DNA from: Marinobacterium mangrovicola
Lineage (GTDB): Bacteria; Pseudomonadota; Gammaproteobacteria; Pseudomonadales; Balneatricaceae
Assembly: GCF_004339595.1 (NCBI RefSeq)
Contig: NZ_SMFU01000007.1
Location: 1,238,658-1,302,657, forward strand
Reading direction: 5' to 3'
Length of the DNA: 64,000 bases
Part shown: positions 43,801 to 53,269 of the stretch, piece after piece
How positions within the stretch are numbered: the stretch's first letter is position 1
How the letters are laid out: each line of letters begins with the position of its first letter
Translations under genes and position numbers: made by a program
The notes under the pieces: generated by a model
Seen by the model: the letters and a program-made list of their open reading frames with translations, nothing else
Told to the model about the DNA's origin: nothing
Databases searched by the model: none

Positions 43801-44633
43801 GCGGCTTCCGGCGCCAGTGCAACCAGATCGATCGTTTCAAGCCCCAGCTGAGCCTGCCATTGCGGCTCACTGCCGGTCACACCTTCAAGTTCAGCAGCCA
43901 GCCTTGCGCTCAGCGGGCCACTGACATCCTGTGTAAGCGCTATCGCGTCCACTGGTCCCTGCAACCTGCCCTTGAGCGCAATCTCGGGACGCTCCGGCAG
44001 ACGCAGCAGCACGTCAGAAGTGAAGTCGAGCGGGTAGTCCCCCTTGAGTGACATCTTCCCGGCAAGCGAGGCTGTCCCCATCGTCGCGTCCACAGAGAAC
44101 TGATCAAGGACGAGGTCGCTCTGCGCCATATGGGTTTTGATCTTCAGGCTGTTAACCAGCGCTTCAGGCTGCCCATCGATACGCAGACCGTTTAGCGACA
44201 CCTCCTCAATATCGATACCCAGCGGCAGCGCAATGCTGTCCGGCAGGCTGAAACCCGCGTAAGGTCCCTGAGGCTCAGGCTCGGCAGTCGCCGGCTCGCC
44301 AGGCACAATCAGCAGACCTTCCAGCGCCAGCCGTTGCACCGAGAGCTGCGCAGAGAAAAGCTTACCCGGCGACCAGTCCAGCTGCAGACCATCCAGCTCG
44401 ACACCGCTGCCCTGTGGCGGGCGAAAACTGACGCCTTGCAGATCCAAAGGCCCGGTCAGCGCGCCATTGATACTTTGTACCTGCAACCCAGGCACCCAAC
44501 GCTGCGCAAGATCGAACACCCAACGAGTACCGGTTTCGCTGCTCACCAGAAACAGCAACACAGCCAACAGCAGAATGACCAACGCCAGAACGGCAAACAG
44601 GATACGGCGGATCCACCGCAGAGAACGCCTCAT
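40863..44633 (-). CDS. tamB: Translocation and assembly module subunit TamB
   Basis: Very long envelope protein of 1256 residues, anchored by an N-terminal helix at about residues 10-30 (ILFAVLALVILLLAVLLFLV), followed by long repetitive beta-strand sequence of the AsmA/TamB type and the C-terminal DUF490 domain ending with an aromatic residue and a strand (LVRYRLATRWLLESTTSSEA, then YSFER). TamB spans the periplasm and passes lipids or assists outer-membrane protein insertion with TamA. The start overlaps the tamA stop by four bases, so the pair is co-translated. Confidence 0.93.
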   Translation of the reverse strand: MRRSLRWIRRILFAVLALVILLLAVLLFLVSSETGTRWVFDLAQRWVPGLQVQSINGALTGPLDLQGVSFRPPQGSGVELDGLQLDWSPGKLFSAQLSVQRLALEGLLIVPGEPATAEPEPQGPYAGFSLPDSIALPLGIDIEEVSLNGLRIDGQPEALVNSLKIKTHMAQSDLVLDQFSVDATMGTASLAGKMSLKGDYPLDFTSDVLLRLPERPEIALKGRLQGPVDAIALTQDVSGPLSARLAAELEGVTGSEPQWQAQLGLETIDLVALAPEAAAAELSDISARLEASGSFTAAELSLEGSFSQAQTGPMQLSLQAGADTERAEIKRLNLVQTDGPASVDLTGHIAPLTPEGELALDLHWSDLAYPMIGAAPQFASPKGSLLLSGTLNDYLAELDIGVQAPPLEAISLTGEARGNLQAIDSLDLVAQAPEGRAQIKGSAGWQPMPLWNLNIEADQLDPGYFVAEWPGKISALIHTEGQIDAEPELTARIEELGGTLRQQPLSGQGEVSLSGGVWQVQGLDLDWSDAEVSADGEVGEAIALNFNLSLPALDKLLPEAGGQLSASGTVGGTPAMPAVEANLSGSALRWQSYQVGAVGGRVNFDPQWRSAADIALQASALNLAGQVIDSVNLAVSGSEQALNTELDVKAGEDSLSAVLEGSLSLAETEWGFDGRLRKLAVTQTAAGTWSLNQPAALSLAPNRYRLDQLCLAAQTGQGRLCAQGSLEDSAILGQFSLAQLPLALVQPYLPPGAEIKGYVDGEGRFESQGQRMDYALKIELPEAGVSSAERDLALTLDTTELTVEGDQKLAQVRFNAPLPELKGSLNASIDVDNPTTDPGLDGQVRLDLPQLAALNVLSADLVIHEGRARADLDLAGKVSAPKVRGQLLLDEGDMEIPAFGLHLTDMRVNLRDADTPDKLLLDGTVTSGEGSLELAGELWPLENRIEATLKGENFQAVDTREMAVRISTDMSLAVDPERIAVGGKLVVPEALIRPPKASPNAASRSADLVVIEEGADGEQALGPAMDLDLSVELGDNVRVDAFGFTGLLRGALRVQQQGQGVPRGTGRLGVQSGEYTLYGQQLTITRGDVLFTGGPVTNPGLDLRVDREVEDVTVGAVVSGTLRTPDLALTSSPSMPDNHILSYLVLGRAPGSASSGEQQMLMRMALALAGGQKVAGRIQETFHVDEVGIGSGDSGEDTSFYIGKYLTPDLYIKYGVGLGDTVNTFLVRYRLATRWLLESTTSSEASGGDLIYSFER

Positions 44634-46378
44634 AGATCAGGCCCCAGCGAGAAGTGGATACGGAAGCCGTCATCATCCAGAGGTTTCGCAAGATCTACCC
44701 GTATCGGTCCAATCGGCGACTGCCAGCGAGCACCAACACCCGCAGACTGTTTGAGCGGCGTACTCAGGGAATCAAACGCATTGCCAGCATCATAGAACAC
44801 TGCTGCGCGCCAGTTGCCGGCCACCCTGTAGTCAAACTCGGCGCTGTAGGTCAGCAGATAACGACCACCGCGGACATTACCTTCGCCATCTTCCGGCCCC
44901 AGCTCTTTGTAGGTGTAACCGCGCACGCTGTTATCGCCACCGGCGAAAAAGCGCCTGGATGAAGGCATATGTTCAAAATCCTCAACCGCCGTTGCACCGA
45001 TCTGGGTGCGTCCCAGGAAACGCCAGTCATCGCCCAGTGATTTAACCACTTTGGCATCCGCCTCAATCTGCACAAAACTCAGATCCGAGATAATATTTTC
45101 CTCGGCGCCGCTGAGCTTGATACCCAGGCGATAGCCGTTGCGGGTATTAAGGCGGTCATCAGCCTTGCTGATCTCCCAGTCCAACTCCGGCACCAGCAGC
45201 AGAGTGCTTTGTTCCTCGCCGCCAAAGCTGAATTTTTCCTGCTCAAGGATCAAGCCGTAATTCCAGCTCTGATTACCGCGCAAGCGCTTGTCGAGCGCCG
45301 CCAGCGACCACTTTTCAGTATCGGTGGTATCCGTGGTTTCCTGCTCGTAGAGCGCCTGTACCGCGTAGCTATCGTTTAACGGGTTAACACCCGGTATGCC
45401 GTATTCACTGCTCAGGGTATTGGTGACTTCGGACAGCTCCAGCTTGGTGTCCATGCTATGGCCGCGATCATTGACCCAGCGCCGGTCCTGACGCACGCTG
45501 AGTCGGGCGCCCGTATCGGTACCGTAACCGACACCAAAACGATAGGCGGTGCGTTTATTGGGCTGCATATTCACCTCTACCGGCACCCGGTGTTGATCAT
45601 CGGCCTGAGACCAGTCCGGCTGTACATCGACCAGTTCGAAGTAGTCGCTGTCGATCAGTCCGCGCTGCATCAGGATCAGCTCATCATTGCGCACTGGATC
45701 GCCCGCCTGCACTGTCTGATAACGCCGCAGCAGGGATTCACGCACCGGCGCCTCACCGAAATTGATGTCACTGATGGTATACGCGGGCCCGGTGTCGAAG
45801 CTCAGCTCGATCCGGGCCCGGTTATCTTCGGGATAGACCTCAATTTTTGACTGCGTAAAGCGGGCATCGTGATAGCCCTCCAATGCTGCCTGCTCCAGCA
45901 GGTCGGCTTTCAACGCGTCATAGGCCTGCTGGTCCAGCTTTTCGCCGCTGGCCAGCACCGGAGATTTAAGCCAGGCATCGAACAGGCCGCTATCGGCGCC
46001 CTCGCCCAGCAGTTCCAGCTTCTGATCCTCGATCAGGACGGCGGGGCCAGGATTGACCTCATAGATCGCCAGCCAACCGCTTTCGGTACGCTCGAGTCTA
46101 CTGTCGATCTGCGGATTGAAATAACTGTAAGCCTGGAGTGCATCGCGCAACTGATCTTCCGCATTACGGTGCAGGTAACGGACTCGCGCATCAGAGGGCT
46201 CTGCGTCCGCAGGCAAAGATGCAATCGAAAGAGTACTGCGCAGCCCCTCCTGCATGGTCCCTTCGACACCCTCGATCTGCACAGCCACCTCCGCAGCAGC
46301 GGTAATCGGCAGACTGAGAGAGATAACAAGGCAGCAACAGCGCAGAAGGCGACCCGGGTGTGTAGCCAAATAGATCAA
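44630..46378 (-). CDS. tamA: Translocation and assembly module subunit TamA
   Basis: Outer-membrane Omp85-family protein of 582 residues. A signal peptide (CCCLVISLSLPITAAAE) is followed by three POTRA domains and a C-terminal 16-strand barrel with SSRRFFAGGDNSVRGYTYKE, the conserved VRGY motif of the family, and a terminal aromatic-rich strand IHFSLGPDL. It works with TamB in envelope assembly. It is the first gene of the tamAB unit. Confidence 0.93.
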   Translation of the reverse strand: MIYLATHPGRLLRCCCLVISLSLPITAAAEVAVQIEGVEGTMQEGLRSTLSIASLPADAEPSDARVRYLHRNAEDQLRDALQAYSYFNPQIDSRLERTESGWLAIYEVNPGPAVLIEDQKLELLGEGADSGLFDAWLKSPVLASGEKLDQQAYDALKADLLEQAALEGYHDARFTQSKIEVYPEDNRARIELSFDTGPAYTISDINFGEAPVRESLLRRYQTVQAGDPVRNDELILMQRGLIDSDYFELVDVQPDWSQADDQHRVPVEVNMQPNKRTAYRFGVGYGTDTGARLSVRQDRRWVNDRGHSMDTKLELSEVTNTLSSEYGIPGVNPLNDSYAVQALYEQETTDTTDTEKWSLAALDKRLRGNQSWNYGLILEQEKFSFGGEEQSTLLLVPELDWEISKADDRLNTRNGYRLGIKLSGAEENIISDLSFVQIEADAKVVKSLGDDWRFLGRTQIGATAVEDFEHMPSSRRFFAGGDNSVRGYTYKELGPEDGEGNVRGGRYLLTYSAEFDYRVAGNWRAAVFYDAGNAFDSLSTPLKQSAGVGARWQSPIGPIRVDLAKPLDDDGFRIHFSLGPDL

Positions 46379-46561: not shown

Positions 46562-46590
46562 TTGCTAATGATAATAGTTCGCATTATGAT
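46562..46590 (+). promoter_or_regulatory. Sigma-70 promoter overlapping a Fur-box-like sequence
   Basis: TTGCTA and TATGAT are 17 bases apart, and the spacer carries AATGATAATAGTTCGCATTAT, which matches the Fur 7-1-7 pattern (TGATAAT-N-ATTATCA) fully in the left arm and at four of seven positions in the right. It fires rightward, away from tamA. Confidence 0.65.
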
Positions 46591-46596
46591 TACTAA

Positions 46597-46698
46597 CGCT
46601 TTGACAGGCTTTCATCGGGTTCACGTCAGACCCACACAGCTGACTGACCCGGTTCACGGTTTACGCCCGTCCCCGGCTACCGGACGGGCGCTTTTTTT
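46597..46698 (+). ncRNA. Candidate Fur-regulated small RNA
   Basis: Between the promoter just described and the terminator at 46664-46698 there are about 100 bases with no gene on the plus strand, and the genes on both sides are on the minus strand. A promoter with Fur box, a short transcript and a strong intrinsic terminator is the structure of RyhB, PrrF and NrrF. Part of it folds through GTCAG (46626-46630) and CTGAC (46641-46645). A 66-codon frame from 46550 starts before the predicted transcript, so coding is unlikely. No sequence similarity to RyhB or PrrF was recognised. The rest of 46379-46561 holds only the tamA promoter region. Confidence 0.55.
46664..46698 (+). terminator. Strong intrinsic terminator of the small-RNA candidate
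   Basis: CGCCCGTCC pairs perfectly with GGACGGGCG over a nine-base loop, followed by C and seven T. There is no A run on the left, so it works only rightward. Confidence 0.85.
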
Positions 46699-46721: not shown

Positions 46722-49082
46722 TTACACTGACAACGTTTCACTCGATCTGATCCGTTCATTGAAAGCCGCAGCCTTCAACGGCCGTGAGAAATAGTACCCC
46801 TGCCCCAGTTCACAGCCCTGCTGACGTATACAGCGCAATTGCCCTTCGGTCTCCACGCCTTCGGTAATCACACGTAGTTTCAGCGCCTCGCTCATGCTAA
46901 CGATCGCCTTAACCAGCGCTCTATGGGTTTCATTAGCTTCGATATCCATTACGAAGGCGCGATCGATTTTGAGCACATCCAGCGGAAATTTCTGCAGATA
47001 GCTCAGCGACGAGAAGCCGGTGCCGAAATCATCGATCGACAGCAAACAGCCTAACTGTTTCAGCTGTTTCATCACCTCCAACGCCTGATCGCTGTTATGC
47101 ATCAGCATCGACTCGGTAATTTCAAGAACAAGGTGGCCGGCAGGCAGTGAATACTTCTCGCAGACCGTAGCCACCCTTCCCGCGAAGCGCGCGTTCTGCA
47201 ACTGTTTGCTCGATACGTTCAGCGACAGCGTGATATCGCAGCCGAACTCCTGATGCCACTGCGCCAGTTGCCGTGCCCCCTCTTCCAGCACCCACTCGCC
47301 GAGTGGCACGATCAACCCGGTCTCTTCCGCCACATCGATAAAGTCACCGGGTGCCAACAGCCCTTTCTGCGGATGGTTCATCCTTATCAGCCCCTCGGCG
47401 CCGACGATCCGCTGGTCATCGAGATCAAAGACCGGCTGGTAGTAGAGCTCGAAATACTGCCCCTCAAGCGCTTCACGCAGAAGAGATTCGGTGTTGACCC
47501 GTTGCAGGGTCCGCTGCTCGTCTTCGGGGACAAACACACAGGCGCGGCCACGCCCCTCGGCCTTGGCACGATACATGGCAAGGTCAGCACTCTTAAGCAG
47601 CTGGTCGGGCGTCGTGTCCTCGCCCTGGTAAACGGCGATACCGACAGACGCTGAGATATGCATGGTGCACTGATCGATCTGGAACGAGGTTTCGAGCTGA
47701 TCGATAAGCCGACTGGAGAGCGACATCAGCGAAGCTTCATCGGTAACGTCATGTATAAGCACGGCAAACTCATCACCACCGAGGCGCGCCACGTAGTCAC
47801 CCGCCGGCAGAATATTCTGAATCCGTGAACCCGCCGCACGCAGCAGTTTGTCACCGGTATGGTGACCGTAGGTATCGTTGATATATTTGAACCGGTCCAG
47901 ATCCACAAACATCAGGGCGAGACCTGCCTCGCTATCGTCGCTGCCACCGAGTTGCTCACCGAGCAGCATTTTGAAGAGATGGCGGTTGGGAAGTCCGGTA
48001 AGGCTGTCGAAGTTGGCCTGACGCTCTATGGTGCTCAGGGCATCATTGAGACTGGTGATATCGGTCATCACCGCCATCACGCCCTGGCCATCCGGGTTCG
48101 GTGTCGCATCGACGCGCATGGAGTGCTCTTCACCGGCGGCATTACGCAGCTTCAGATAGAGTTCAGCATGATGCCGGTGAGCAAGCCGCTCAAAGGCCGC
48201 ATCCAGGGAACGAAGATCTTCCGGATCGATCAGCAGAGAACGAATATGCCGGCCCAAAACCTGATCCAGCGAGTAGCCGAGATGGTGGAGAAAATGTTCG
48301 CTGACATTCTCGAATACACCACGATCCGACAGGCAGAACAGTAGAGCTGGAGTGCGATTATAGAGGTGGCGGAAGCGCTCCTCGCTGCGGCGCAGGGAAC
48401 GGTGCTTGTCTTCCACCTCAATCAGCAACTCATTGTAGGCGCCGATGATGGTGCCAAACTCGTCGTTTGGCAGGCGATCACCTACACGCACCAGCTCGCC
48501 GCTATTGCGTGAGCGCTCGATGGCAAACAGCAGTTGCCGCAATGGCCGGTTGATATAGCGAACCTGGAAGATCAGGATCGCCAGCGCCGACAGTGAAACG
48601 ATCAGCACCAGGGTAACGATGGCATCATCAAGGATCGATTTATTCGCATCCACCAGGCTCTGAGCGCTGGCTTCCATCACCAGCCAGCCTGATTCTTTCT
48701 CGCTGCCGGCGATATCCGGCACCGGAACGACGATCCGCCCCTCGACCTGAATCTTGCCGTAAGCCTCTGTTTCCAGATTAACGACCGGATGCACCTCGGC
48801 GTCGAGCAACTCGACCCTCAGCACATCAGGCTCCGCCAGGAGCAGGTTAAGGATGTGGACGACCTGTTCGCGATCCGCCTGGGCGACGTTGACGGCCAAC
48901 GCGCTGGCGAACTGATCCAGACGATCAAAACGGGCATCAAGCTGATAGCGGAAGGTTTCGCGGGCGATTTCGGATTTGTAGAAGCCGCCACCGCCTAAAA
49001 CCAGCAACGCACAGACGAGCAGGAGCAGCGCTAGCTTCAGATGAACCGGAAACCTGGATCGGAGTCTGGACTCGGTTGCCAT
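46722..49082 (-). CDS. Membrane GGDEF/EAL c-di-GMP enzyme with HAMP and PAS
   Basis: Inner-membrane protein of 786 residues: helix at about residues 15-35, periplasmic sensor region to about 155, second helix, HAMP to about 235, PAS at about 240-350, GGDEF domain with RLGGDEFAVLI near residue 440, and EAL domain with the catalytic glutamate in VGAEGLIRMNHP near 568, LEITESMLM, and IDDFGTGFSSLSYLQKFPLD. GGDEF and the main EAL catalytic positions are intact, so it could make or degrade c-di-GMP; which one prevails cannot be told. It is monocistronic. The 291 bases between it and ureG hold its promoter and nothing else I can name. Confidence 0.92.
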   Translation of the reverse strand: MATESRLRSRFPVHLKLALLLLVCALLVLGGGGFYKSEIARETFRYQLDARFDRLDQFASALAVNVAQADREQVVHILNLLLAEPDVLRVELLDAEVHPVVNLETEAYGKIQVEGRIVVPVPDIAGSEKESGWLVMEASAQSLVDANKSILDDAIVTLVLIVSLSALAILIFQVRYINRPLRQLLFAIERSRNSGELVRVGDRLPNDEFGTIIGAYNELLIEVEDKHRSLRRSEERFRHLYNRTPALLFCLSDRGVFENVSEHFLHHLGYSLDQVLGRHIRSLLIDPEDLRSLDAAFERLAHRHHAELYLKLRNAAGEEHSMRVDATPNPDGQGVMAVMTDITSLNDALSTIERQANFDSLTGLPNRHLFKMLLGEQLGGSDDSEAGLALMFVDLDRFKYINDTYGHHTGDKLLRAAGSRIQNILPAGDYVARLGGDEFAVLIHDVTDEASLMSLSSRLIDQLETSFQIDQCTMHISASVGIAVYQGEDTTPDQLLKSADLAMYRAKAEGRGRACVFVPEDEQRTLQRVNTESLLREALEGQYFELYYQPVFDLDDQRIVGAEGLIRMNHPQKGLLAPGDFIDVAEETGLIVPLGEWVLEEGARQLAQWHQEFGCDITLSLNVSSKQLQNARFAGRVATVCEKYSLPAGHLVLEITESMLMHNSDQALEVMKQLKQLGCLLSIDDFGTGFSSLSYLQKFPLDVLKIDRAFVMDIEANETHRALVKAIVSMSEALKLRVITEGVETEGQLRCIRQQGCELGQGYYFSRPLKAAAFNERIRSSETLSV

Positions 49083-51559: not shown

Positions 51560-53269
51560 TTAGAAAAGGTAGTAACGCTGCGCCATCGGCAGTTCGGTGG
51601 CCGGTTCGCAAACCAGAAGCTGGCCATCGGCACGCACTTCATAGGTCTGGGAATCCACTTCGATCTTCGGCTGATAGCTGTTCAGGATCATCTTATCCTT
51701 GGTGATCGTACGGCAGTCGCGTACCTCACCAATCAGGCTTTCAAGGCCAAGCTCGCTCGGTATACCGGCCGACATGGCTGCCTGGGAGAGGAACAGCATC
51801 GAGGTGCTCTGCACCGCGCGACCGAAGCTGCCAAACATTGGGCGGTAGTGTACCGGCTGCGGGGTCGGGATAGACGCGTTGGGATCGCCCATCGGCGCCA
51901 CCGCGATCATGCCACCCTTGATGACCATGCTCGGTTTGGTGCCGAAGAACGCCGGTTTCCACAGCACCAGGTCCGCCAGCTTGCCCACCTCGATGGAGCC
52001 CACTTCGTGTGCAATACCATGGGTCAGTGCCGGGTTGATGGTGTACTTGGCGATATAGCGCTTGATACGGCTGTTATCGTTGCGTTCGGTATCACCCGTC
52101 AGCGCACCACGCTGCACCTTCATCTTGTGCGCGGTCTGCCAGGTACGGGTGATCACCTCACCAACACGGCCCATGGCCTGGGAGTCAGAAGAGATCATTG
52201 AGAACGCGCCCAGATCGTGCAGGATATCCTCGGCGGCGATGGTTTCGCGGCGAATACGGGATTCGGCGAAGGCCACATCCTCGGCGATGGAGGGATCCAG
52301 GTGGTGGCAGACCATCAGCATATCGAGATGCTCATCGATGGTGTTGACCGTGTACGGGCGGGTCGGGTTGGTGGACGACGGCAGAATGTTGGCTTCGCCC
52401 GCCGCCTTGATGATATCCGGCGCGTGACCGCCACCGGCACCTTCGGTGTGGTAGGTGTGAATCACGCGACCGTCGATCGCCTTCAGGGTGGTTTCCACGA
52501 AGCCCGCCTCGTTCAGGGTGTCGGTGTGGATCGCCACCTGCACATCCATCTCGTCCGCCACGCTCAGGCAGCAATCGATGGCGGCCGGGGTGGTGCCCCA
52601 GTCTTCGTGCAGTTTCAAGCCAATGGCGCCGGCTTCGATCTGCTCACGCAGCCCTTCCGGCTGGCTGGCGTTACCCTTGCCTAGGAAGCCCAGGTTCATC
52701 GGCAGCGAATCCGCCGCTTCCAGCATGCGGTGGATGTTCCACGGGCCCGGTGTACAGGTGGTGGCGTTGGTGCCGGTCGCCGGTCCGGTACCGCCACCGA
52801 TCATGGTGGTCACACCCGAGCAGAGCGCTTCGTCGATCTGCTGCGGGCAGATAAAGTGGATATGGGAATCGATGCCGCCGGCGGTAAGGATCTGACCTTC
52901 ACCCGCGATCACTTCGGTACCCGGACCAATGGCGATATCGACATCCGGCTGGATATCCGGGTTACCGGCCTTGCCGATGGCGGCGATACGGCCGCTCTTG
53001 ATACCGACGTCGGCTTTAACGATGCCCCAGTAGTCGACGATCAGCGCATTGGTGATTACCAGATCCATGGTACGGCTGCTCGGGCGCTGGCCCTGTCCCA
53101 TACCGTCACGGATCACCTTACCGCCGCCGAACTTAACCTCTTCACCGTAGGTGGTGAAATCGCGTTCCACCTCGAGCAGCAGCTCGGTGTCTGCCAGACG
53201 TACACGGTCGCCCGTGGTGGGGCCGAACATCTCCGCGTAGGCGCGTCTAGAAATCTTTGCCATTTTCAA
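51560..53269 (-). CDS. ureC: Urease alpha subunit
   Basis: Catalytic subunit of 569 residues, hydrolysing urea to ammonia and carbamate. Nickel ligands and active-site parts are complete: HIH at 136-138, the lysine to be carbamylated at 219 in [13 protein letters not shown], the segment [19 protein letters not shown], the flap cysteine in [17 protein letters not shown], and [13 protein letters not shown]. It is 19 bases after ureB. The urea comes from the allantoicase and AllA steps encoded in the same window. Confidence 0.97.

Follow-up and report, generated by a model that had tools for sequence, protein, structure and literature searches.

We report that the gap between tamA and a PAS-GGDEF-EAL gene of Marinobacterium mangrovicola very probably holds the gene of a Fur-repressed, iron-sparing, trans-acting small RNA (sRNA). 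The locus lies in a 64,000-nucleotide stretch of DNA (the window) and was originally predicted to encode a new Fur-controlled sRNA. At the level of sequence this prediction is borne out: the putative gene has a promoter with a Fur-like box, a terminator and covarying stems, it is conserved as a structured RNA gene, and its invariant seed is complementary to conserved sites in the sodB and fumarase leaders. The circuit itself is inferred, from transcription and Fur binding to intracellular pairing, Hfq dependence and the sign of the regulation: Fur would sit on the promoter when iron is present and the sRNA gene would be silent. When iron is short, an RNA of about 102 nt would be transcribed, and its unpaired 5' seed UUGACAGG would pair with two mRNA leaders, that of sodB at CCUGUCAA, shortly before the ribosome-binding site, and that of class I fumarase at a similar site, so that less of both iron enzymes would be made. 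This proposes an iron-sparing regulator with named targets for marine and soda-lake bacteria and would add a further sodB-directed RNA under Fur-like control, in a sequence family of its own; neighboring genera may show seed and target changing together.

Both flanking genes lie on the minus strand, as had been claimed, and were assigned from domain matches: tamA at 44630-46378 (Omp85 and TamA POTRA domains) and the PAS-GGDEF-EAL gene at 46722-49082. Between them, on the plus strand, the predicted sigma-70-type promoter is present at 46562-46590, with TTGCTA at 46562-46567, a 17-nt spacer and TATGAT at 46585-46590, and the alignment shows it kept in all six copies from the window's genus, save for single-position changes. 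The Fur-box-like sequence reported in its spacer corresponds to two overlapping 19-mers (46564-46582 and 46570-46588) that overlap the promoter and together form a Fur-like operator at 46564-46588, with no strand assigned. Each agrees with the Escherichia coli consensus at 14 of 19 positions, which is weak when taken alone: a first-order random model expects 0.8 sites this good in every 64 kb, and the window has two further places with a score of 14. As chance nearly accounts for such a box in the window, it is comparison that carries the case, and the promoter, Fur-like box and terminator of the window alone are only suggestive.

The predicted RNA, whose start was placed from the -10 box and whose extent follows from alignment, model and fold, spans 46597-46698 on the plus strand. 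Its intrinsic terminator (46664-46698), recognized from sequence, covariation and fold, consists of a nine-pair stem (46664-46672 with 46682-46690), a C and seven T (46692-46698). The nine-base stem and seven T of the original prediction therefore stand, but the distance does not: the likely start lies near 46597, and from there it is about 67 nt, rather than about 75, to the stem. Our terminator scanner did not list it because the loop is 9 nt and the scanner permits 3 to 8. Because the stem lacks a T-run when read on the minus strand, the terminator serves the plus strand, and with both neighbors on the minus strand it indeed has no other client.

Upstream of the terminator, the seed TTGACAGG (46601-46608) is invariant in the alignments across three genera and lies within a block, 46598-46609, that is invariant throughout the window's genus. 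In the six genus copies, GCTTTGACAGGC and the CACGG at 46655-46659 never change, and the loops vary. The first stem-loop (46614-46653, arms 46614-46620 and 46647-46653) is indicated by covariation in these copies and by the fold. None of 200 shuffled sequences folds as well as the predicted RNA (z = -3.1). The six-copy alignment was adjusted by hand with padding so that the arms line up, which favors structure; of its 90 cells, 96.7% pair and 10 are changed on both sides. None of 500 shuffles reached its paired percentage, changed cells or covariation score, the count of doubly changed pairs was reached by 10 of 500 and the number of pair types by 450 of 500, and every slid register was far worse. 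Alignment A7 was excluded as evidence for the first stem, which had been fitted to the model there. The seed core, at the 5' end of the RNA, is predicted to be largely unpaired (mean probability 0.78, versus 0.41 for the whole RNA), a difference seen in 24 of 24 copies.

Using the surrounding DNA as a query against 38 relatives matched eight genomes, which are all eight members of the window's genus (0/30 elsewhere). The whole element recurs in six of them, and this conservation of promoter, 5' block and terminator raises the observation above chance; G004 and G007 match solely through Fur-like boxes of other genes. The GGDEF-EAL gene adjoins all six copies and tamA only three, with neighbors partly named by eye, so that the expected conservation held for the element and failed for its place next to tamA. 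When 116 genomes of the family were scanned with a model built from the six copies (R1), two further genera proved to have full-length copies, and a later model, R2, added G059. The element is thus full length in 6/8 genomes of the window's genus (g1), 8/8 of a second Marinobacterium group (g6) and 11/11 of Nitrincola (g10), a total of 25/27 genomes in three Nitrincolaceae genera when six unmatched genomes are counted as members of other genera. G097, G105, G058 and G057 carry extra copies with TTGACAGG.

Under strict filters, the family and order samples gave no similarly scoring match outside the three genera. In the 390-genome order sample, matches of at least 66 bits came from ten genomes, all in these genera, and matches elsewhere reached at most 42.5 bits; one outside match is a true Pseudomonas-type PrrF (158.8 bits in Rfam), and among the weak matches outside the family, L188 alone was inspected. 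An exact pattern, stricter than the model and missing some true copies such as that of G001, matched 18 stretches in an 84,980-species collection: 11 from Marinobacterium, 6 from Nitrincola (two of them metagenome bins) and 1 from a bin named Oceanospirillales. The sRNA was not found in viral contigs. The new sRNA thus stands, and the "lineage" to which it was ascribed is wider than one genus. Separately, three Nitrincola genomes (loci L065, L070 and L071 of G101, G103 and G102) have a second RNA-like gene with the same TTTGACAGG block, no Fur box and an upstream GG-N10-GC (TGGCACN5TGC type) that looks like a sigma-54 promoter. A cobalamin riboswitch (L047 1209-1439, minus strand, 109.9 bits) lies near the sRNA gene of M. 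halophilum.

In the window's genome, the same Fur-like box also precedes a TonB-receptor-like gene, named by eye, and a bacterioferritin-associated-ferredoxin-like gene (49.9 bits, cut-off 75), and in G004 it precedes an imelysin-like gene (128 bits, cut-off 850). The sRNA gene itself adjoins two bacterioferritin genes in Nitrincola schmidtii (above cut-off), two ferritin-domain genes in M. marinum and a TonB-receptor gene in M. iners. Three Nitrincola genomes (G097, G099 and G105; loci L234, L238 and L266) have a Fur-like box upstream of a second superoxide dismutase gene, whose product may replace the iron enzyme in iron shortage.

The usual targets of iron-sparing sRNAs are sdhC, sodB, fumarase and acnB, and these four were picked beforehand. 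The superoxide dismutase of the window's genome fits the iron-type model best (334.6 bits, just under the cut-off of 348; Mn type, 159), and its leader reads CCCTGTCAAACAAATAAGG...ATG, with the site from -27. CCTGTC, the six-base complement of the seed block, closely precedes the ribosome-binding site of sodB. Within 60 nt before sodB it occurs in 19 of 20 sRNA bearers, against 4 of the 23 family members in which no copy was detected; the corresponding counts are 15/20 and 2/23 for CCTGTCA and 11/20 and 1/23 for CCTGTCAA. The one bearer lacking CCTGTC, G096, reads ACTGTCAA. These counts cover 20 of the 25 bearers (of one set of 30 genomes searched for sodB, five gave no match) and leave out the second superoxide dismutase genes of G011, G020, G097, G099 and G105; as the leaders are orthologous, the genomes are not independent. 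The sodB site is kept in G004 and G007, two assemblies (87% and 90% complete) that yielded no sRNA, and two g3 genomes also have CCTGTC before sodB. Two genomes of genus g12 (G092 and G095; loci L287 and L295) have Fur-like box RNAs with TTCTTGTC before the terminator, and in g12 the sodB leaders carry GACAAGAAGG, to which another seed may correspond.

Within 100 nt upstream of fumarase, CTGTCAA is present in 4/6 g1 genomes (G006 has CCTGTCGAAGC and G001 nothing), 6/6 g10 genomes and 0/6 g6 genomes, at about -80 to -71 in g1 and at -49 to -39 in Nitrincola. In g6, only G058 has CCTGTC before fumarase, and in five of six genomes an 8-nt run, GTCAATGA, spans the start codon instead. We compared the longest perfect complement to a 15-nt seed region with shuffled sequences, in 18 genomes per gene. 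The means were 8.44 for sodB (shuffled, 5.19), 8.61 for fumarase (5.09), 6.39 for sdhC (5.46) and 4.44 for acnB (5.02). We thus discarded acnB, which has no site, as a target. sdhC is doubtful: its GACCTGTAAA follows the start codon, in coding sequence, and gives runs of 8 nt in g6, 6 to 7 in g10 and 5 in g1.

An unbiased search of six genomes for CCTGTCAA ahead of a ribosome-binding site and ATG gave 19 matches, six of them sodB, one per genome, and sodB was the sole gene found in all six; no other gene recurred among the 14 matches with a frame of more than 20 amino acids, the remaining five standing outside this comparison. The reversed-pattern control gave 24 matches, so there is no overall excess. 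A strict 11-mer complement likewise gave no overall excess in 20 genomes (140 sites versus 157 for the reversed control). Among the roughly half of its sites that were inspected, the fumarase leader of G002 and a hairpin before a maf-like gene in three genomes stood out besides the sRNA genes. The hairpin, GCCTGTCAAAGGAAAGC(A/G)GGC, is conserved upstream of a Maf-like gene in G002, G006 and G005 (L118, L128 and L131). Single-genome duplex energies were unremarkable, 3 to 257 of 500 shuffles being equally good.

Three other explanations bear on this evidence. An open TTG frame spans the window copy, as a small protein gene would require, and the transcript could also be the leader of a neighboring gene. 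We consider either highly improbable. The sole start common to the six copies is a TTG inside the seed, so few nucleotides from the transcript start that there is no room for a ribosome-binding site, and the peptides diverge. The original prediction had named a conserved small peptide frame as a refutation, and none is conserved among the six copies; its statement that no gene lies on the plus strand here also agrees with our finding that none follows downstream in the window. It is somewhat less improbable, yet still quite unlikely, that TTGACAGG and the complementary leader sites serve as a regulator's DNA site or a second promoter instead of as seed and target. TTGACA is the sigma-70 -35 consensus, and the seed matches it; moreover, the sodB site persists in two members of the genus in which no sRNA was detected. 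A second promoter was nevertheless rejected, as none of 24 copies has a -10-like hexamer 16 to 18 nt further on. Against a DNA site, the sodB element, scored only as CCTGTC in the pairing orientation, is found in 19 of 20 leaders adjoining the ribosome-binding site, and the fumarase site shifts position between g1 and Nitrincola.

Descent from the ancestral RNA that also gave rise to Pseudomonas PrrF, with far divergence and a changed seed, is the most plausible of the three, though we regard it as unlikely. The Fur-box promoter and the UCACGG before the terminator fit it, and the PrrF model (RF00444) gives 29.2 bits to the best homologue (G002), 19.6 to G005 and 18.3 to the window copy (G003). 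All of these are far under the gathering score of 90, so membership was rejected; the other eight of eleven tested copies gave no PrrF row, and the first 80 or so RNA positions do not align. Another genome of the same family, G020, carries a tandem PrrF-like pair (L077 40-212 and 263-437; 51.1 and 50.7 bits, gathering score 90), which also speaks for this descent. The traits common with PrrF may reflect distant kinship. It is conceivable, though we hold it only tentatively, that one family has re-seeded its iron-sparing circuit several times, as the PrrF-like pair of G020, the TTGACAGG RNA of three genera and a g12 RNA whose TTCTTGTC would fit the sodB ribosome-binding site of that genus, and that the sigma-54-like sibling in Nitrincola may add a second signal to the same targets.

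The reading that we prefer, a Fur-repressed iron-sparing sRNA, can be set beside known systems. To judge by its sequence, the candidate has the traits of the RyhB-like class: a Fur-like operator in its promoter with the same box at iron genes, a short structured RNA with an intrinsic terminator and no conserved peptide, and complementarity to iron-enzyme mRNA leaders, of sodB in three genera and of fumarase in two. No Rfam family matches the sRNA locus at gathering score, in keeping with the earlier claim that it resembles neither RyhB, PrrF nor NrrF. A match to anti-hemB (RF02837; 21.1 bits, gathering score 49.5) is mostly terminator and was rejected. Elsewhere in the window, at 52827-53113 (plus strand) in the urease region, a 5_ureB_sRNA match of 121.2 bits is probably conserved coding sequence read on the other strand. 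A literature search, with most subscription journals outside it, found no iron-sparing sRNA of Nitrincola or Marinobacterium.

RyhB of enterobacteria pairs at the sodB start region and, like the candidate, is a Fur-controlled RNA; RyhB membership was rejected because the window copy and eleven homologues gave no RyhB row up to an E value of 10. NrrF of Neisseria and HrrF of Haemophilus are likewise Fur-controlled small RNAs, and NrrF has no row among the Rfam matches of the same copies. PrrF shares a Fur-box promoter, an RNA of about 100 nt, UCACGG before the terminator and iron enzymes as targets (PMC4211561), but has another seed, and the window's genus has a single sRNA copy. BrrF of Burkholderia targets sodB and fumA among others, is predicted to pair mostly through its 5' end, has no separate Fur box and is expressed together with hemP (PMC7377471). 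By these described traits, the candidate resembles BrrF in sodB and fumarase targets and 5'-end pairing, and differs in a promoter with a Fur-like box. RyhB-like sRNAs have a common function without significant homology (PMC4211561), and the candidate is thus a new family within a known functional class, whose proposed job is given to unrelated sRNAs in many bacteria.
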